Assembly: GCA_013152755.1 (NCBI GenBank)
Contig: JAADFR010000185.1
Location: 1 to 48,239, forward strand
Length of the DNA: 48,239 nt
Direction of reading: 5' to 3'
DNA from: Alphaproteobacteria bacterium
GTDB taxonomy: Bacteria > Pseudomonadota > Alphaproteobacteria > Sphingomonadales > Emcibacteraceae
Within the stretch, counting starts at the first letter, position 1. Each line of letters opens with the position of its first letter. The translations under genes were made by a program, and so were the position numbers. Positions 1,486 to 15,748 of the stretch are shown here, piece by piece. A model generated the notes under the pieces. That model searched no databases, had not been told where the DNA came from, and saw only the letters and a program-made list of their open reading frames with translations.

Positions 1486-2859
1486 TCATAAATTAGGCAT
1501 GGGCTGCGTTCCGGGGCCGGGAACATTGACACCGTCAGACATATAAATATTCAATTTGTTGCGTAACGTCCGAATGGAAATCCCAAGGATATTTGCCGCA
1601 TGGGTACGGTTACCCAAACAATGCTTCAACGTATCAATAATCAGGTCTTTTTCCACATCCGCCACCGTGCGCCCAATCAGGGACGCCGCCGCAAGCGGTT
1701 CGGTGCCTTCCGGTGTCTGCTGATCGCCCAAAGACGATCCGGACTGAATTTCCATGTGGGGCTTACCGTCCGGCAGAACGATGTCAGAGGCTTCAATATC
1801 ACTTCCCGCCGTCAACAGAACGGACCGGTGAATAGTATTTTCCAGCTCCCGCACATTGCCGGGCCAACTGTGATTGATCAGAACCTTCATCGCGCCGTCA
1901 GTGACATTCTTCGGCGGCAGGGCGTTAAATTCGGCATAACGTATGGCAAAATGTTTGCATAAGGCCCGAATATCCTCTGGCCTGTCTTTCAAGGGCGGGA
2001 TATTCAGATTAATTACATTCAGCCGGAATAAAAGATCTTCGCGGAAAGTCCCCTCTTTCACCGCTTCCTGCAAATTCCGGTTTGTGGTGGCGATCAGCCG
2101 GATGTCAATCTTGACCGCACGGGAACCGCCAACCCTGTCAACTTCGCGCTCCTGTATGACGCGGAGCAATTTTGCCTGCAACCGCACATCCATTTCGCTG
2201 ATTTCATCCAGCAACAAGGTGCCGCCGTTGGCTTCCTCAAATTTACCGATCCGCCGGGCCACGGCGCCGGTAAAGGCCCCCTTTTCATGGCCGAACAGCT
2301 CGCTTTCCAGCAGGTTTTCCGGAATGGCTGCGCAATTTACCGCGATAAAAGACTTACCCCGGCGGCGGCTTTTGTTATGGACATGGCGAGCCATGACCTC
2401 TTTCCCGGTGCCACTGTCGCCGGTGATCATGATGCTGGCCTCGCTGGCGGCAATCTGATCGGCCAGCTTGACAACCTGCATCATATTACGGTCACGATAG
2501 ATGAATTTATGCTCGTCAACGGTGATGGCGGTCAGAACAGCGGCGATCAGGTCCGGGTCCGGTGGCAGGGGAATATATTCTTTTGCCCCCGCCCGAATGG
2601 CGGCGACCGCCTCATCGGAATTTGACCCCACACCGCAGGCCACGGCTGGCGTGGAAATATGCTCGGACGCCAATTGATCCAGCAGGCCCTTGATGTCACA
2701 TTTCACATCGATCATCAAAAGATCGGCCCCTTTGGAGCGGATCAGGGTCAGGGCCGTCTGTTCATCGGGCGCATGAATAACCTTCGCGCCATTGTTCAGG
2801 GCGATCTGTGACGCTGCCGCCAGCTGTCCCCCTAACGAGCCTACAATTATTAGTCGCAT
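1486..2859 (-). CDS. flbD: Sigma54-dependent flagellar transcriptional activator FlbD-like (receiver-like + AAA+ + Fis HTH)
   Basis: 457 aa; [53 protein letters not shown] (GAFTGA loop), C-terminal Fis-type HTH; located in a flagellar cluster. Confidence 0.88.
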
Positions 2860-5874: not shown

Positions 5875-7571
5875 TTATCCGTACAACCAACCTCTGACGA
5901 CCGCTGCGGATTCTTCCGGATGCCGTTCAACTAACTCCCCGACTTTCTTCAGGGCAGTGGCTTGTATTTTTCCTTCAACCGCCGCAACATCAATGGCCGA
6001 ATCAATGGCGCCGGTCTGCTGGGCTATCTCGCGGGAGGTCAATTGCCGCCCATGTTCATCAACGAGGGAAACGGCCTGTTCCCCGCCTTCAGGTGCGGCA
6101 AGGGCCTGCTGCTCACCCGGGGGTAATTGCCCCTGCGCCCCCCCTTCAATCGCCGCCATCTGCGGGGTATAGGTCGTCGGTGGTGAGGTGAGGAATTTGA
6201 TCAGAGGCCGCAGGGCAAAGAAGATCACCAATATGCCGATCAACATAAGACCACCAAGTTCGATAAAGCGCATGATGTCCGCCTTGCTGAAATCAAACAA
6301 GCCTGTTTCTGCACTTTCTTCCCCGTAATCCACGGCGGCAAATTGCATATTTACGATCTGGACGCTGTCCCCGCGTTCCTCATCATAGCCAATGGTTGAC
6401 TGGACCAGTTCTTTCAACTTTTCAATATCTGCCGCACTGCGTTCCTGATAAACGGCGGGATTACCCTCCCCCGCGTCCTGATAGGTTCCGTCAACCAACA
6501 CAGCCACCGTAATCTTCTTAATGGTGCCCGCCTCATGTATCTGGGTTTTGATTGTCTTGGAATTCAGGAAATTGGTTATTGTTGATGTATCATTATCACT
6601 GGACTGATTCTTGATGGCCGGTTCTTCATTCCCAGCCTGATCCTGATCCGGCAGGTTGTTATTGACCGAAACCGTCTTTTCATCAGCATTTTCGCGCTTG
6701 TTGGTTGTCCTCTCCCGGCTTTCTTCCGACTGGATGACCTGACCATCCGGGTCATATATTTCCGAATTGCTGGTGATCCGGTTCATATCCAGTTCGGCAC
6801 TGACCTCTGCCCTGACCTTGCCACCGTTTTCTCCAGCAGGGTTTCGATCTGACCCCGCAGGCGATTTTCAATAGAAATCTTCTTTTCCTCCAGCGACAGA
6901 GACATCATGGATGCCGTGTCTTCGGACGATCCGCGCGCCAGCAGGGAGCCCTTCTGGTCCACAATGGAAATACGTTCCGGTTGCAGGTCCGGCACTGCCG
7001 CCGCCACCAGATTCTGAATGGCCATGATCTGATTGCGTGACAGACGGCCAGAGTTCGATTTGATAAAGATGCTTGCCGTGGCTTGGCGGTTTTCATTGCT
7101 GAACAGGCGACGTTGAGGCAGAACCAGATGGATGCGGGCACTGGTCACTTTATCAATGGATTGTATGGTCCGCGATAATTCACCCTCCAAGGCCCTGACC
7201 CGGTTGATATTCTGGACAAAGCTGGTGGCGCCGAGACTGTCACTACGATCAAAAAGCTCATAGCCCAGTGACCCGCCATTGGCCAGCCCCTGCTCGGCCA
7301 CTGATATGCGGATACGGCTAACCTGATTTTCCGGCACCAGTATCGTGCTGCCGCCCCCGACCAGTTCATAAGGGATGGCCTGTGCTTCAAGACTTTGGAC
7401 AATCTTGGCTGAATCCGATAAATCCAATCCGCTATATAATAAAGACATATTGGGTGTGGACAGACGGATGGATAGAAAGATAAAAAAGCCGATGGTAATG
7501 GCGGCGACGGTCGCAATTGCCGCCAGACGGGCCGGGCCCAATGTTTTAAAGAACTCTGCTAAACCATTCAC
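5875..7571 (-). pseudogene. fliF: Flagellar MS-ring protein FliF, reading frame interrupted by an apparent 1-nt deletion (ORFs 6783-7571 and 5875-6786)
   Basis: N-terminal 262 aa ORF (FliF/YscJ domain: LLYSGLDLSDSAKIVQSLEAQAIPYELVGGGSTILVPENQVSRIRISVAEQGL) and C-terminal 303 aa ORF (MNRITSNSEIYDPDGQVIQSEESRERTTN...) are consecutive FliF halves in different frames. Reading upstream of MNR in its own frame gives ...GKVRAEVSAELD, the expected FliF continuation; inserting one G in ACGGTG-GC-AAG restores TVGKVRAEVSAELDMNR. Either a true pseudogene or a sequencing/assembly indel. Confidence 0.85.
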
Positions 7572-7760
7572 AATGTCGTTTCCTGATATACTTTTTAAAT
7601 TATATTACTTAATATCTGCGTCTGCTGCCCCATCCCGAAGGCGAGATTGATTCAACGTTATATTAAGTTTACCAATTATTAAGTAAACAAGACGTTAATG
7701 GTAGGCAATTTTTGCCTAGTTAAGCTGAAAATTATGTTGACATCCCCGAAACCAAGGGTT

Positions 7761-7918: not shown

Positions 7919-8218
7919 TCAATTATCCAGCCTCTGGGATGTATTCTCCCGATACTCCTGAACCCGGGTCACCCGAAGCCCCAGAAGCCCGTCTTTATCA
8001 ATTGCCCGCTGCCAGGAGAGAAATTCCTCCACTGACAGGGTATATTTCTTACAGGCATCTTCCAGCGACAACAACCCACCCCGTACGGCGGCAACCACTT
8101 CCGCCTTGCGTCGTATGACCCAACGTTTGGTATTTGTCGGTGGCAGATCCGCAAGCGTAAGCGGTTCGCCTGTCGGCCCCAACACAGGTGCGGCTGACAT
8201 ATTTTGAAATCTACTCAT
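7919..8218 (-). CDS. sciP: CtrA inhibitor SciP (DUF1153 family)
   Basis: 99 aa; RWVIRRKAEVVAAVRGGLLSLEDACKKYTLSVEEFLSWQRAIDKDGLLGLRVTRVQEYR, hallmark SciP sequence. Confidence 0.92.
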   Translation of the reverse strand: MSRFQNMSAAPVLGPTGEPLTLADLPPTNTKRWVIRRKAEVVAAVRGGLLSLEDACKKYTLSVEEFLSWQRAIDKDGLLGLRVTRVQEYRENTSQRLDN

Positions 8219-8411: not shown

Positions 8412-9794
8412 TTAGCGTTTAATATTATTCAATTCGGTCAGCATCTCATCCGCTGTGGTGATGATTTTGGTACTGGCCGAAAAGGCTCTTTGAATGGTAA
8501 TCAGGCTGGTAAATTCACCGGCGAGGTCCACGGTCGAGGCCTCCAATGTCTGCGGCGCGACAAATCCGGCCCCGCCGACCCCGGCAAATTTAAGGTTCAA
8601 ACTGCCCGATTGGTCCGATACGGTATAAGAATTTCCCTGCCGCCGGGTCAGCCCGTCCGGGTTCTGGAAGGTGCTGAGCGGAAGCTGAAAAACCTTTTTA
8701 GCCAGACCGTTACTGAACAAGGCGCTGATCACCCCATCCTTGTCGACGGAGACCCCAATCACGTTACCAAATGTCGCCCCGTTGGAGGAAGATGAAATAA
8801 GGGTCGAATCACCGGCAAACTGGGTGATGCCATCACTAAGGCCATCGGTCCCCAAATCAAAGGTAATATTGCCCGCATTCGCCCCACCGGTCCAGTTTAC
8901 AGTAACTGGGTTTAATAAAGCAGGCGTCGTCCCCGCCACATTCAGTGTACCATCACCGTTAAAGGCCATCTGACCACTGATAATCTGTCCGGTGCCCGCC
9001 AATCCCGAAGTTACTTCACTGGGCGGATCGACAAACATTTCCACATTCCACAGATTATCCGCCTGCCGCAAAGCAGCAAATGTCACCGTATGAACGCCCC
9101 CGCGTGCGTCAAAAACCTGTACATTGGTCTGAAAATCAGACTTTACCCCATTCACGGGTGGAATGACACCAGCAGCTATATCCGCCGCATACCCAGCCAT
9201 GGAACCGGCCACGGTGGCCGAGTTATAGGTCGCCCCCGTCACCGCCGCACTAATCGGCTGTGATGATTGCAGGTTAGCCCGCAGAGTCAGGCTTGTGGTT
9301 GCTTCCGCCGTACTGGTCAGATTCGAAACATTGATAGGCTGAAGCCCGCTCAGGACCAAATTGGCAGGTGGCTCGCCATTGCTGTCAAGGGGAACCCCCA
9401 TCAGGAAAAGGCCAGCCGTATTTTTCAGGAAACCATCCGCGTTGGGCGTAAATGACCCCGCTCTGGTGAAGCTGATTTCCGTATTGGGATTCACCGGCTC
9501 ACCCCGGGTGGAGACAACGAAGAAACCAGCGCCGTCAATGCTGAGGTCCGTGGCAGACGTGGAAGATTGCAACAATCCCTGACGACTGATCAGGCTCTGG
9601 GGCAAGGCTTGCACCCCGCCCGGTGAATAGCTGGTAGAGGAACTGGATTCCGTCACCAAAGTGGAAAAATTCGCCCGGGTTTCTTTATAGCCAATGGTGT
9701 TCAGATTGGCGATATTGTCTGAAACCATGCCAAGAGCGGCACTGAAGGCGCCAAGTCCGGATACGCCGGATGCAAGTGATGCGAAAAGACTCAT
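8412..9794 (-). CDS. flgE: Flagellar hook protein FlgE
   Basis: 460 aa; MSLFASLASGVSGLGAFSAALGMVSDNIANLNTIGYKETRANFSTLV and C-terminal FTSLITIQRAFSASTKIITTADEMLTELNNIKR. Confidence 0.95.
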   Translation of the reverse strand: MSLFASLASGVSGLGAFSAALGMVSDNIANLNTIGYKETRANFSTLVTESSSSTSYSPGGVQALPQSLISRQGLLQSSTSATDLSIDGAGFFVVSTRGEPVNPNTEISFTRAGSFTPNADGFLKNTAGLFLMGVPLDSNGEPPANLVLSGLQPINVSNLTSTAEATTSLTLRANLQSSQPISAAVTGATYNSATVAGSMAGYAADIAAGVIPPVNGVKSDFQTNVQVFDARGGVHTVTFAALRQADNLWNVEMFVDPPSEVTSGLAGTGQIISGQMAFNGDGTLNVAGTTPALLNPVTVNWTGGANAGNITFDLGTDGLSDGITQFAGDSTLISSSSNGATFGNVIGVSVDKDGVISALFSNGLAKKVFQLPLSTFQNPDGLTRRQGNSYTVSDQSGSLNLKFAGVGGAGFVAPQTLEASTVDLAGEFTSLITIQRAFSASTKIITTADEMLTELNNIKR

Positions 9795-9899: not shown

Positions 9900-10538
9900 T
9901 TATGGTTTGACAGCCTGAATATTTGAGGTTGCCGTTAAAATGCCGTTGACGGATAAATTCACTTCACCGTTCAAGGCTTCGATGGTTTCCACCCGTCCTT
10001 TGGAATAGATGGCAAATTGTACATCTGTCCCGTTTGCTGTCTGAGCAGACAGACTTAACTGATATATACCATCGGGGGTATTTGCCGGGGCATCCCAAAC
10101 AAAATCGTGTAATCCGGCCTTGTTATTGCCCTGACCTTCAAACAATATCTTGCCCTTGGAATCCGTCACGGTCAATTTTGTTTCCTCTGAATTGGTTTCA
10201 AGGCCATATTCCCATTTGGCCACACCATCCCGCAAACCTGCCCTGTCCGTTTCAATGGTCACTTCCTTGCCCAGATAGCCAACCGCATTGGACATGGCCT
10301 GAGTCTTGGTCTGACTGATGAGATTTTCAAGGTTTTTATTGGTGGTAATGGATTGTTCCACTTGAGAGAAAGATACCAACTGATTGGTAAATTCGCTTGA
10401 GTCCATGGGATCCAACGGATCCTGAAACTGCAACTGGGTCGTCAAGAGGGTTAAAAACTGATCAAAATCATCGGCCAGTTTTGTCTCACTCCTTGTCGCT
10501 ACCGATGAATTGGCGGCTGATGCTGCATTGATTTCCAT
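9900..10538 (-). CDS. flgD: Flagellar hook assembly (scaffolding) protein FlgD
   Basis: 212 aa; FDQFLTLLTTQLQFQDPLDPMDSSEFTNQLVSFSQVEQSITTNKNLENLI is diagnostic for FlgD. Confidence 0.95.
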   Translation of the reverse strand: MEINAASAANSSVATRSETKLADDFDQFLTLLTTQLQFQDPLDPMDSSEFTNQLVSFSQVEQSITTNKNLENLISQTKTQAMSNAVGYLGKEVTIETDRAGLRDGVAKWEYGLETNSEETKLTVTDSKGKILFEGQGNNKAGLHDFVWDAPANTPDGIYQLSLSAQTANGTDVQFAIYSKGRVETIEALNGEVNLSVNGILTATSNIQAVKP

Positions 10539-10554: not shown

Positions 10555-12189
10555 TTAAATATTTATATCCAGAAGATTATCTGAATAGGCCATTTTCATT
10601 TGCTGGTGGCTTATTATGCTGTTTGACAAAGCGGGCATTTGATCGAAATCATGTTCACTGCTTTCCCCACTGTCCCGATCTGCTTGTTCAAATTGCCCCA
10701 TATCCTGTTGCTGTTCTTTCAGGGTAAAATTCAGGCTGTTGCCCCCGGCATCAAAGCCGGCATTTTCCAGAATTTTAACCAGTGATCCCTGGTCCCGCTG
10801 AAGCATCTGGAGCGTCCGTTCGCTCTCAACCGTCACCGTGGCCGCCACCTTGCCCTCAGCCAGGAAGTGCATCTTGATGTCCACCTGACCAAGTTCAGCG
10901 GGCTTCAAGGTTATCCTGAAACTCTCCTGACCGCCACCAGACTGTTTGGCAATGGCCATGCTGATTTGTTTGGCAACCATCTGTGGATCAACGCTCAACA
11001 TCTGAGGTCTGGCGTGGCCCGTTTGGGTCAGCCCATTGGCCTGGCTTAGATGCTGGTTCGCGCCCTGACCCACTTCCTGAACGGACAGCAATCCGGTGGC
11101 AAGTTGCGGCGACGTCATCTGTATTGCCCGGCCTTCCGTACTCACCGCCCCCTGACTGACCTCTGTCAGAAATGGGGTTTTAGACATCGAAATGCTGGCA
11201 GTATCAACAATACCAGCGGCTTTATTACTGACCACATCCGTTTTATGGCTAGAGGTTTGGGTGAAATTACGCCCGTTATTCTGTGAATTTTCTTTATTCT
11301 GCGAACTTGCGTTTTTATGGTCAACGACTTGATAACGGCCTGCCGCCTCACCGTCAGAGCGCGCTTTACCCATATCCTTAACGTCGGCTTCTTTTACCAT
11401 CCCATTTTTTTCCGGTTTCTCCGGCACAGGGGCCGCCGCAATGGCCGCCTGTTGGCTAGTTACAACCGGGGCAGGATTTTCCGCTAATGCAGCAGCCTGG
11501 TTAGCGACCGCCGTCACAACGGAAATTTCCTCTGCCGATGTTTCAGCGGGAGCTACTGTCGGCTTTGGCGAAATGTCGGATGCACCCACTTTGGGAGAAG
11601 CCATGGAAGGCGCATCTTTTTTCGGCAGTGAGTTACCTTCTGACTTTTGGCCCACAATATTTATACTTTGCCCTACTATAGAGAGATTTTGATCAGGAAG
11701 ACCTTGACCTTCAGGGGCGAATACCGCCGTATTCTCCGGCGTAAAATCCGCTGTGGCCACCTCTACGATTGACGTTTCATTTTGTCCGCCCTCCAAGACC
11801 GGCGCATCAGGCGCTGCAATAACCGGCCCGGCCATCGGAACAATCTGATCTTCTGGAATGACATCTGTTATGAGACCATCTGTGTCAATCAATTCAGACG
11901 TCTGTATATCTGCCTGTCCTTCTGGCTCTTTATTGTCTGCAACACGCCCAAAGCTGCTTTCCAGAGCGTTCAACAAAACCGCCTCACTGGACACACCCTT
12001 ACCTGTCAGTCTTTCTTTAAATGGAATAATTTTCTCATCTGTAGCCTGAACCAGCTGATCTGCAAAGGCTTTGCCCTCGCCTTTGGGTGTTGTCTGCGCC
12101 CCCTTCCCATCACCGGACACAAGCTGTCCACCGCCAGCCGTGGGGGCAGCGGAGATAACATTTGTGAATAGTTCAGTACTCAGAGTCAT
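10555..12189 (-). CDS. fliK: Flagellar hook-length control protein FliK-like
   Basis: 544 aa, low-complexity N-terminus, C-terminal Flg_hook-like domain (FRITLKPAELGQVDIKMHFLAEGKVAATVTVESERTLQMLQRDQGSLVKILENAGFD), upstream of flgD-flgE. Confidence 0.85.
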   Translation of the reverse strand: MTLSTELFTNVISAAPTAGGGQLVSGDGKGAQTTPKGEGKAFADQLVQATDEKIIPFKERLTGKGVSSEAVLLNALESSFGRVADNKEPEGQADIQTSELIDTDGLITDVIPEDQIVPMAGPVIAAPDAPVLEGGQNETSIVEVATADFTPENTAVFAPEGQGLPDQNLSIVGQSINIVGQKSEGNSLPKKDAPSMASPKVGASDISPKPTVAPAETSAEEISVVTAVANQAAALAENPAPVVTSQQAAIAAAPVPEKPEKNGMVKEADVKDMGKARSDGEAAGRYQVVDHKNASSQNKENSQNNGRNFTQTSSHKTDVVSNKAAGIVDTASISMSKTPFLTEVSQGAVSTEGRAIQMTSPQLATGLLSVQEVGQGANQHLSQANGLTQTGHARPQMLSVDPQMVAKQISMAIAKQSGGGQESFRITLKPAELGQVDIKMHFLAEGKVAATVTVESERTLQMLQRDQGSLVKILENAGFDAGGNSLNFTLKEQQQDMGQFEQADRDSGESSEHDFDQMPALSNSIISHQQMKMAYSDNLLDINI

Positions 12190-12234
12190 AGTTTTCCATT
12201 TTTTTCATAGGCGTAATGATCTACGAAGTATCTA

Positions 12235-12250
12235 AGCAAATTACGGGCCA
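12235..12250 (-). promoter_or_regulatory. Putative sigma54 promoter of the fliK-flgD-flgE operon
   Basis: Reverse complement TGGCCCGTAATTTGCT differs from TGGCACG-N4-TTGCT at only one defined position; ~46 nt upstream of fliK start. Confidence 0.75.
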
Positions 12251-12362
12251 TTTTTAGCCACCTGACTAATATACTGAAAAATAAGGATAATATTTTCTTC
12301 TCCGGTGGCTTATCACACAGCATCCGGTAATTTCTTCCTGATTTTCAGGGTAAATATTGCTG

Positions 12363-12389
12363 GTCGGCAGAATGAACCCGTCGGCAGAA
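12363..12389. promoter_or_regulatory. Direct-repeat, enhancer-like element between opposed sigma54 promoters
   Basis: Two identical GTCGGCAGAA copies (12363-12372 and 12380-12389) with 17-bp periodicity, followed by TTTGCCGG (12397-12404) in opposite orientation. Confidence 0.45.
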
Positions 12390-12444
12390 ATATATCTTTG
12401 CCGGAAAAGACCATGTCATATGTTTTTCACATCTGCCGTCAAAT

Positions 12445-12460
12445 TGGCCTGAGCCTTGCA
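12445..12460 (+). promoter_or_regulatory. Putative sigma54 promoter of flgK-flgL
   Basis: TGGCCTGAGCCTTGCA matches TGGC-N7-TTGCA -24/-12 spacing; ~230 nt upstream of flgK. Confidence 0.6.
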
Positions 12461-12691
12461 TCTATTATAGGCATGACAGGGATACGACCCAAGCTCAAGC
12501 CCATTGGGATCATAAGGCTATACATATTATTTATGTGCATTTTCAATGCCTTGAAAGGATAACATAGATGTTGAGTACAAATTATATAACGAAATATATC
12601 CCCGCAAGGAGGGGCTATTTTTTCCTGTTACGGCAAGGGTTGCCTATCAAGAACATCATAATCCCGACCAGAAGTCGTTGAAAGGAATCCC

Positions 12692-14800
12692 ATGTCCATT
12701 AATGCCATTATAAATAATTCCCTGACCGGATTATTCACCAATCAGACGGCACTGCGGGTCACATCCAGCAATATTGCCAACATCAATACCCCCGGTTATG
12801 CCCGGCAAGTTGTACGGCAGGAAGCTATTGTCAATGGCAGCACAATGGGCGGGGTCAGAATCTCGGAAATTGTCCGGGTCGTGGATAAATTTCTGGTCAG
12901 TGCCGTATATGATGCCAATGCCAGCTATTCCCGCTATGAAGTGGAAAATTCTTTTCAGAGCCGGATACAATCCTTACTGGGACGCCCGGACCAGAATAAT
13001 TCCCTGTCCGGCCGCATTGATAATACCTTCAATGCCCTGTCGGAAATGGCCCTTAATCCCCTGTCCCTTGTTCTTAAAGAAAGCACCCTGTCAACGATTA
13101 ACCAGTTCGGCGAGGAAATCGGCGGCCTTGCCCAGCAAATTCAGAATATGCGTCTGGATGCCAGCAATCAGATCGCCCAACAGGTTGACCGCATCAATGC
13201 CCTGACCAAGCGCATCGAAAGCCTGAACCCCCTGATCATCAAAGAGACCCTCACCGGTGGCGAGCCGGGAGCTTTGATCGAGAAACGCGCACAGGCCCTG
13301 ACGGAACTGTCCAATATTGTTGACCTAAATATCACCGATTCCGGGAGCAACAATATTCAGGTTTCCACGTCATCCGGTGTTATTCTGGTGGGAGCAAGCC
13401 GGAAAATCCTGCAATATACGCCGCCGGGCTCGGTGACATCATCAACCCCCTTTTCGCCGATTACGGTACACCAGATAGACAATGCTACAGGTGGGCTTCG
13501 GCCCAGCAATACAACACTGGACGGCGATTTAAAAGCCGGATCACTAAAGGGCTTGCTTAACCTCAGAGACAAAGAGCTTCCCGAGATCGCCCTGCAACTG
13601 GGCAGCATGGCGGCGGGCTATGCCGATGAGCTAAACCGGGTTCACAATTTAAATTCTGCCGTACCAGCTCCCAACAGCATGACGGGCGTCAATACGGGCC
13701 TGTTGGCAACGGACAGGCAGAATTTCACCGGCGAAGCCGTTTTTGCCATTACCAATACCAATGGTGATCTGGTCTCCAAAGTCAATATTGATTTCGGGGC
13801 CATTGGGCCAACCATGAATGATGTCGTAAATGCGGTAAATGCCGGGCTTGGCGGCGCAGGCACCATGGCCCTGTCCAACGGTGTCCTGTCCTTAACCGCA
13901 ACCGCTGCCACAAGCGGCGTGTCAATATCGCAGGTGGATGGTAATGAAAGCAGCCGGGGCGGCCGGGGGTTCTCTCAATTCTTTGGTATGAATAATCTGG
14001 TTCAGGCCCGCGCACCTGCACATTATGAGACCGGGGTCTCCGGTACGGATGCGCATGGCTATACCGCTGGTGATACCATGCTGGTGGAAATGCGGGACGG
14101 TAACGGGGTAAAGCTGACCGAATATACCCTGACCATTGGCGGCACATCCTTTAATGACATATTGACCAACCTGAATGGCAGCACATTGGGGAGTTTTGCC
14201 ACTTTCTCTTTATCGGCCACGGGCGAACTGGTGACAACACCAAAACCCGGCATTGATGATATAAAGCTTCACATAAAAACCGATAATACATCGCGAGGCT
14301 CAACCAATGTTCCCCTATCCAAATTCTTTGGTATTGGGGATTCTTTTCGTACAGATGCCGCCGTTGACTTGAAAGCCAATGATACAATTGCCAATAACCC
14401 GAGCCAGATGGCTCTGGCCCGTTTCGACCAGACCGCCATCGTTGGCGGAAATGCCTTAAGCATCGGGGATCAGACCGGGGCACTGGCCCTGTCAAATTTG
14501 TCCGGGACGGCGCGTAGCTTCGATCGGGCGGGCGGGCTGAGCGCCACGACGGCAACCTTATCCCAATATAGCGCCAACTTGCTGGCTAATCTGGGGCTTC
14601 GGGCTGAACTGGCCAATAATTCAATGGCGGATAATCTTTCGCTCAGCGAGGAACTAACACGAAAATCTTCGGATATATCCGGGGTGAATCTGGATGAGGA
14701 ACTGGGTAATATGGTCATATTCCAGAATGCTTACTCAGCATCGGCCAGATTACTGAGTACCGCCAAGGAATTATTCGATACAATATTACAAATTGTGTAA
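12692..14800 (+). CDS. flgK: Flagellar hook-associated protein FlgK
   Basis: 702 aa; INNSLTGLFTNQTALRVTSSNIANINTPGYARQVV and C-terminal SGVNLDEELGNMVIFQNAYSASARLLSTAKELFDTILQIV. Confidence 0.95.
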   Translation: MSINAIINNSLTGLFTNQTALRVTSSNIANINTPGYARQVVRQEAIVNGSTMGGVRISEIVRVVDKFLVSAVYDANASYSRYEVENSFQSRIQSLLGRPDQNNSLSGRIDNTFNALSEMALNPLSLVLKESTLSTINQFGEEIGGLAQQIQNMRLDASNQIAQQVDRINALTKRIESLNPLIIKETLTGGEPGALIEKRAQALTELSNIVDLNITDSGSNNIQVSTSSGVILVGASRKILQYTPPGSVTSSTPFSPITVHQIDNATGGLRPSNTTLDGDLKAGSLKGLLNLRDKELPEIALQLGSMAAGYADELNRVHNLNSAVPAPNSMTGVNTGLLATDRQNFTGEAVFAITNTNGDLVSKVNIDFGAIGPTMNDVVNAVNAGLGGAGTMALSNGVLSLTATAATSGVSISQVDGNESSRGGRGFSQFFGMNNLVQARAPAHYETGVSGTDAHGYTAGDTMLVEMRDGNGVKLTEYTLTIGGTSFNDILTNLNGSTLGSFATFSLSATGELVTTPKPGIDDIKLHIKTDNTSRGSTNVPLSKFFGIGDSFRTDAAVDLKANDTIANNPSQMALARFDQTAIVGGNALSIGDQTGALALSNLSGTARSFDRAGGLSATTATLSQYSANLLANLGLRAELANNSMADNLSLSEELTRKSSDISGVNLDEELGNMVIFQNAYSASARLLSTAKELFDTILQIV

Positions 14801-14824: not shown

Positions 14825-15748
14825 ATGACACGGGTATCAAGTTTCGGAAATCAACAGGTTATGCTGAGCAGACTGATGGATAATCAAGCCAGACTGTTCA
14901 AGGATCAGACTCAGATCACAACCGGTAAGAAAGAAGATAGTTACAGCGGACTGGCCACCGAAATTTCAACTCTTCTGGGGGCGAAAACGGTGATTGACCA
15001 GACACAGGGATACTTGCGGGCAGCAGATCATGCGGACCGTTTTTTACGCACCAATGATATTCAGCTCAGCACCATGGTCACCAATGCGGAGAATATCCGC
15101 GACACGATGCTTGAGGCCATTGCCCAGGAAGAAACTTTTGCCCTGAATGAATTGATGGGTGAATCCTATTCAACCATGGTCAGCGCCCTGAACACCAGTG
15201 TCGGCGGCGTTCATGTTTTCAGTGGTGCCCGTTCGGATAAAGAACCTGTGACCGCCAAGACAATCGCCGACCTTACGGCGGCCACCAATGTTGCGGATAT
15301 TTTCCAGAATGACCAACGCCGCCCAACGGCCAAGGTTGGTCAGAATACGACCATGGAATATGGCCTTTTGGCCGATGAAGTAGGACAGGAAGTCTTTCAG
15401 GTCTTTAAAAATATTGCCGATTTCAATGCCGGGCCGTCCGGGCCGCTGGCCGGGAAACTGGACGCCACCCAGATTAACTTTCTCAAGAGTGAACTGGCCA
15501 ATATGGACACAGCTATTGATAATCTGCGGGTTTTAGTGGCCCGAAACGGCACCCGGCAGAAGAATGTGGAAAATTTCACCAAAGAGCATGAAAATCAGGA
15601 AGCCTTCCTGAAAATATTTATTTCCGACATTGAAGACGTCAATGTGGCCGAGGCCATCAGTCGGCTGAATAATGATCAAGTGGCGTTGGAAGCCTCTTTC
15701 AAGATCACCAGCGAACTGACCAACCTGACACTCCTCAACTTTATCTAG
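14825..15748 (+). CDS. flgL: Flagellar hook-associated protein FlgL (flagellin-like)
   Basis: 307 aa; N-terminal flagellin-type helix region and C-terminal DIEDVNVAEAISRLNNDQVALEASFKITSELTNLTLLNFI; directly after flgK. Confidence 0.9.
   Translation: MTRVSSFGNQQVMLSRLMDNQARLFKDQTQITTGKKEDSYSGLATEISTLLGAKTVIDQTQGYLRAADHADRFLRTNDIQLSTMVTNAENIRDTMLEAIAQEETFALNELMGESYSTMVSALNTSVGGVHVFSGARSDKEPVTAKTIADLTAATNVADIFQNDQRRPTAKVGQNTTMEYGLLADEVGQEVFQVFKNIADFNAGPSGPLAGKLDATQINFLKSELANMDTAIDNLRVLVARNGTRQKNVENFTKEHENQEAFLKIFISDIEDVNVAEAISRLNNDQVALEASFKITSELTNLTLLNFI

Follow-up and report, generated by a model that had tools for sequence, protein, structure and literature searches.

Divergent sigma-54 promoters of the hook and flgK-flgL operons in an Emcibacteraceae genome: sequence conservation points to a dedicated, putatively FlbD-bound enhancer at each promoter

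How are two flagellar operons that diverge from one intergenic region activated, and do they share an enhancer? The original prediction for the fliK/flgK intergenic region was that two identical copies of GTCGGCAGAA (12363-12389) form a single bEBP enhancer for two opposed sigma-54 promoters, with FlbD as the likely activator. The window, the whole stretch of 48,239 nucleotides that was analysed, corresponds to contig C185 of a metagenome-assembled genome of 2.9 Mb; among named sequences, its flbD is most closely related to those of Emcibacter and other Emcibacteraceae assemblies. Leftward from the intergenic region, the gene order is fliK, flgD, flgE, sciP (DUF1153), fliF (broken), fliG, a 219-amino-acid gene in the position of fliH, fliN, a MotA/ExbB-type gene and flbD; rightward, flgK is followed by a flgL-like gene. 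The region is quite probably a divergent class III pair of the Caulobacter type, served by sigma-54 polymerase and most likely by FlbD, with IHF as a proposed bending protein and with one dedicated enhancer per promoter (Table 1).

Table 1. Genes and sequence elements of the fliK/flgK region and of the neighbouring fliF promoter (window coordinates)
Feature	Position	Strand	Remarks
flbD, bEBP (proposed activator)	1486..2859	-	Pfam Sigma54_activat + HTH_8; GAFTGA
Palindrome GTAGGCAATTTTTGCCTAG upstream of the fliF...flbD operon	7701..7719	.	proposed FlbD autoregulatory site, ftr4-like
flgE, hook operon	8412-9794		after flgD; Pfam FlgE_D2
flgD, hook operon	9900-10538		after fliK; Pfam FlgD
fliK, first gene of the hook operon	10555..12189	-	Pfam Flg_hook
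sigma-54 promoter of fliK-flgD-flgE, TGGCCCGTAATTTGCT	12235..12250	-	exact -24/-12 match, kept in relatives
IHF-like core TAATATACTG	12267..12276	-	between hook promoter and enhancer; one mismatch in the window copy
Proposed hook enhancer site A, GGTAATTTCTTCC	12326..12338	.	degenerate palindrome within the conserved block
Proposed hook enhancer site B, GGTAAATATTGCT	12349..12361	.	kept across the genus alignment; 2 mismatches to GGCAAN3TTGCC
Repeat copy 1, GTCGGCAGAA	12363..12372	+	borders the hook-enhancer block and is conserved with it; may be a weak third site
Repeat copy 2, GTCGGCAGAA	12380..12389	+	not conserved, probably incidental
TTTGCCGG	12397-12404		downstream of the repeat copies; present as originally predicted
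sigma-54 promoter of flgK-flgL, TGGCCTGAGCCTTGCA	12445..12460	+	exact -24/-12 match, kept in relatives
IHF-like core CAATGCCTTG	12544..12553	+	in the flgK leader
Proposed FlbD site, flgK downstream enhancer, GGCAAGGGTTGCC in CGGCAAGGGTTGCCTA	12632..12644	.	conserved, locked to the promoter
flgK	12692..14800	+	Pfam FlgK_D1
flgL-like gene	14825..15748	+	Pfam Flagellin_C; Flagellin_N below cut-off

The promoters were examined against the genome and against related loci. On both sides, TGGC-N7-TTGC was found with the exact -24/-12 spacing, and both opposed sites were positionally conserved in 29 of the 30 related loci that were left after three duplicate loci had been dropped. The strict pattern TGGCMYN5TTGCW matched 45 times in the 2.9-Mb genome, whereas the reversed control gave only 2 matches. 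Because of this excess and of the conservation in relatives, the sites are more than chance matches and, as judged from their sequence, the two opposed promoters facing fliK-flgD-flgE and flgK-flgL are real, as had been predicted. From the sigma-54 sites we estimate that transcription of the hook operon starts near 12224 and that of flgK near 12471, which would give flgK a leader of ~221 nt.

The proposed repeat enhancer fared differently. All letters named in the original prediction were indeed in place and its distances were correct, including those from the repeat to the flgK promoter (~55-80 bp) and to the hook promoter (~115-140 bp). However, the repeat was not beyond chance: exact 10-bp direct repeats with copies 10-30 bp apart occurred 3 times in the window, with 1.1 expected, and the intergenic region alone gave a P value of 0.016 that is uncorrected for the choice of region. 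Copy 2 reads GTTAGCAAAA in the 95%-identical sister locus L003 and GATAGCAGAG in L004, and the two-copy repeat was absent from all relatives, both in the genus alignment and in the counts; copy 2 exists in the window's own genome only. Copy 2 also scored only -14.7 bits on a matrix built from the palindromes at fliF described below. Since copy 2 is missing in every relative and the repeat occurs at near-chance frequency, the direct repeat was rejected as an enhancer; despite its placement between the promoters and the retention of copy 1 within the genus, we regard one repeat-based enhancer for both promoters as highly improbable. Copy 1 itself was kept as GGCA[GA]AAT in 14/14 genus sequences, at the edge of a conserved block of ~50 bp that the original prediction did not mention, and the alignment indicates that the unit under constraint is this block and not the direct repeat. 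A long inverted repeat formed by copy 2 and TTTGCCGG was also considered and dropped; it is confined to the window's own genome and absent in L003 and L004.

In the genus alignment, the conserved block reads GGTAA-N3-TTTCC, then GGTAA-N3-TTGC and then CTG-N-TCGGCAGAAT. It contains the two degenerate palindromes A and B, 23 bp apart; site A is GGTAATTATTTCC or GGTAATAATTACC in the genus and a perfect GGCAATTTTTGCC in locus L017. On the fliF-palindrome matrix, sites A and B of the window scored -4.1 and 1.5 bits, compared with 28.8 for fliF and 6.5 for the flgK leader, but a matrix built on the fliF palindromes alone proved too tight to judge A and B and was discarded for this purpose. In 23/25 loci, site A and the hook promoter are separated by 73-78 bp, and in the other two by 64 bp, about one helical turn less (standard deviation, 3.6), whereas the interval between site A and the flgK promoter varies between 63 and 191 bp over the 25 loci (standard deviation, 26.4). 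The block is thus fixed to the hook promoter and varies relative to flgK, which speaks against the single enhancer for both promoters that had been predicted. A and B precede the estimated flgK start by ~116-139 bp, over which a bEBP can work, and enhancers can act over variable distances, so it is still conceivable that the block serves both promoters and that the palindrome in the leader provides flgK with a further site. Given the variable spacing, we consider such sharing unlikely. For Caulobacter, Mullin and Newton reportedly found in 1993 that ftr1 acts on flbG alone and ftr2/ftr3 on flaN alone, and this, too, counts against sharing. For the hook operon, we favor a dedicated upstream enhancer in which sites A and B would lie at ~-108 and -131 from the estimated start.

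Indeed, flgK has a palindrome of its own. The transcribed flgK leader contains a 13-bp palindrome, GGCAA-N3-TTGCC, which is a near-invariant GGCAA-N3-TTGCCTA in the genus alignment. Among 47 leaders, it was exact in 22/26 from the own family and in 4/21 from other families, and present within one mismatch in 23/26 and 13/21, respectively, counts that are inflated by kinship among the loci. With any other spacer from 0 to 7, none of the 47 leaders matched exactly and no more than 3 did so within one mismatch, and five scrambled palindromes matched none of them. The longer form GGCAAN3TTGCCTA is found at one or two places per genome in 14 genomes, and in the window's own genome at two places only, the flgK leader and the fliF promoter. 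The distance from the flgK promoter to the palindrome was 183-187 bp in 11 loci, 196-200 bp in 13 and 177 bp in 1, that is, it clusters at ~186 and ~197 bp, about one helical turn apart. The standard deviation of this distance was 6.9 over ~190 bp, compared with 12.8 over ~60 bp for the distance from the palindrome to the ATG, which ranges from 30 to 84 (25 loci). Judged by this spread, the palindrome keeps its register with the promoter rather than with the ATG. As in a flaN/flbG-type pair, a conserved element is thus locked to the flgK promoter from downstream, and we predict that it is the flgK enhancer, located inside the transcribed leader at ~+168. Several members of the genus carry a further palindrome-like element, GGGAAAATTTTCC, ~19 bp before the leader palindrome; it is degenerate in the window (12598-12625).

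A palindrome in a leader could also be an RNA hairpin that controls translation or stability of the flgK mRNA. A 5-bp stem with a 3-nt loop is possible, and the leader RNA (window 12470-12720, +) has a more stable fold than shuffled sequences (z = -2.64), but the predicted minimum-energy fold does not include this hairpin. Moreover, the position is locked to the promoter rather than to the start codon, and the same palindrome is found upstream of fliF and at fliX/flgI. An RNA element is therefore very improbable, and we favor a DNA enhancer.

Each promoter is accompanied by an IHF-like core. The full IHF consensus is uninformative by itself since it is too common genome-wide (137 matches versus 41 for the control), but in about two thirds of the loci on each side the cores occupy fixed positions; in about a third they are missing or degenerate. 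On the hook side, the core in relatives is YAAN4TTG, strict and 16-18 bp from the hook site in 15/25 loci; on the flgK side, CAAN4TTR lies 97-99 bp from the flgK site in 15/25 loci. The hook core of L015 and L024 lies at 7 bp and their enhancer is also about one turn closer, and in L004 the flgK-side core lies at 89 and the palindrome is also 10 bp closer. These joint shifts of core and enhancer, seen as spacings in related sequences, are the strongest argument for a possible promoter-bend-enhancer assembly on each side. In the proposed model, IHF would introduce a bend between each promoter and its enhancer such that FlbD meets the polymerase on the right face of the helix, and this would explain why spacing changes mainly by about one turn.

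FlbD probably binds GGCAA-N3-TTGCC and looser versions of it. The FlbD encoded in the cluster has the GAFTGA motif and a Fis-type HTH, and a FliX partner is encoded in the genome (above the family cut-off), in line with the prediction that FlbD is the likely activator. The genome encodes eight strong sigma-54-activator domains, so FlbD is the leading candidate rather than the sole one. That one of the other bEBPs binds the palindrome is nevertheless improbable, as the palindrome is a mark of flagellar promoters, among them the promoter of the operon that contains flbD, and flbD is part of the cluster. Palindromes were found at fliF in 21/30 flbD loci of the Emcibacter/Kordiimonas type, and in two separate alphaproteobacterial sets the N3 spacing alone was enriched near sigma-54 sites around flbD loci. 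By virtue of the palindrome upstream of fliF, FlbD would be able to act on its own operon.

Three more flagellar promoters of the same genome, those of flgF, fliX/flgI and a flagellin gene, carry palindromes with 0-1 mismatch. The divergent fliX/flgI region (L199 5779-5913, contig C121) has an exact GGCAAN3TTGCC palindrome, GGCAAGGATTGCC, which falls within a 5' extension of the fliX ORF; the region also has a perfect match to the IHF consensus, AATCAACAAGTTA, and, facing flgI, a sigma-54 site with one mismatch. Upstream of the flagellin gene (L199 7940-8063, contig C121) are a sigma-54 site that fits the strict pattern, TGGCACGCCCTTTGCA, an IHF-like core, CAATAAGTTA, and a palindrome with one mismatch, TGCAAGCTTTGCC; at flgF as well as at the flagellin gene, the one-mismatch palindromes lie upstream of sigma-54 or near-sigma-54 sites. 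A common conserved element is thus present at several flagellar promoters including that of fliF, as expected for control by FlbD through ftr elements. The genome-wide list of palindromes was not adopted as a regulon: 12/15 fall within predicted ORFs that have no evident flagellar context, only three, at the fliF operon promoter, in the fliX/flgI region and in the flgK leader, are outside or at the edge of genes, and only these two window sites and the fliX/flgI site look regulatory.

The predicted arrangement resembles flaN/flbG of Caulobacter crescentus, where hook and hook-junction operons also diverge from two sigma-54 promoters and FlbD and FliX are present. There, the hook enhancer is upstream and the other side has a downstream enhancer with IHF; the enhancers proposed here would lie in the same places, with an IHF-like core on the flgK side, a likeness that is one of layout. 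The Caulobacter locus reportedly has two ftr elements at ~+86 and +120; here, there is one strong palindrome at ~+168 instead, and the hook sites are degenerate. Mullin and Newton (1989, 1993) reported ftr2/ftr3 as downstream elements at flaN/flbG, and Gober and Shapiro (1992) an enhancer 3' of a Caulobacter flagellar promoter, together with IHF. Caulobacter FlbD is an ftr-binding protein that activates middle and late genes and, via ftr4, represses fliF, and it is governed by FliX (PMC3930126). The fliF palindrome is comparable to ftr4 by position, being upstream of fliF with flbD in the same cluster downstream of fliF-fliG-fliN; repression, as described for Caulobacter, is its possible effect here. 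PMC7962754 describes RpoN promoters at which IHF sits between the promoter and the site of the activator; here, in about two thirds of the loci, IHF-like cores lie at fixed positions between promoter and proposed enhancer. Compared with those promoters, the flgK side is mirrored, with IHF-like core and proposed enhancer downstream of the promoter.

The distribution of flbD and of the palindrome was also compared across families of the order. An flbD ortholog (64-69% identity) was found in 12/12 tested genomes of families f2-f5, f7 and f8, and none at E below 1e-100 in 5/5 genomes of family f6. At three f6 flgK starts, coding sequence directly precedes the gene, with no leader, no nearby sigma-54 site on the strand and no palindrome. 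This co-distribution fits FlbD but is confounded, since f6 has a different flagellar gene arrangement. Of 17 further regions upstream of flgK, taken from other families of the order, most contain a sigma-54 site and, 122-232 bp downstream of it, a palindrome that has 0-2 mismatches. The layout itself is already known from Caulobacter; the order-wide downstream flgK enhancer that these data suggest is the most interesting feature. Taken to the extreme, an in-leader enhancer on one helix face might be ancestral and near-obligatory in FlbD-controlled flagella across the order, each round of flgK transcription crossing its own activator site. We rate this as a long shot, but if true, the enhancer could be a built-in brake or timer on hook-junction synthesis. 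With GGCAA-N3-TTGCC, a chance repeat is replaced by a testable model of the FlbD site for a group of marine alphaproteobacteria. The data further suggest that the downstream-enhancer layout of one Caulobacter operon has been kept order-wide with spacing rules of about one turn, and the natural spacing variants lend themselves to tests of downstream enhancers and DNA bending in the activation of sigma-54 polymerase.

Within the cluster, fliF (window 5875-7571, -) is split into two ORFs and has 7 bases fewer than in L032, whose frame stays open for 566 codons; the deficit may be a real loss or an error of the metagenome assembly. Between fliF and flgE is a gene for a DUF1153 protein (window 7919-8218, -), which we take to be of the SciP family and which occupies the same place in most related flbD loci.
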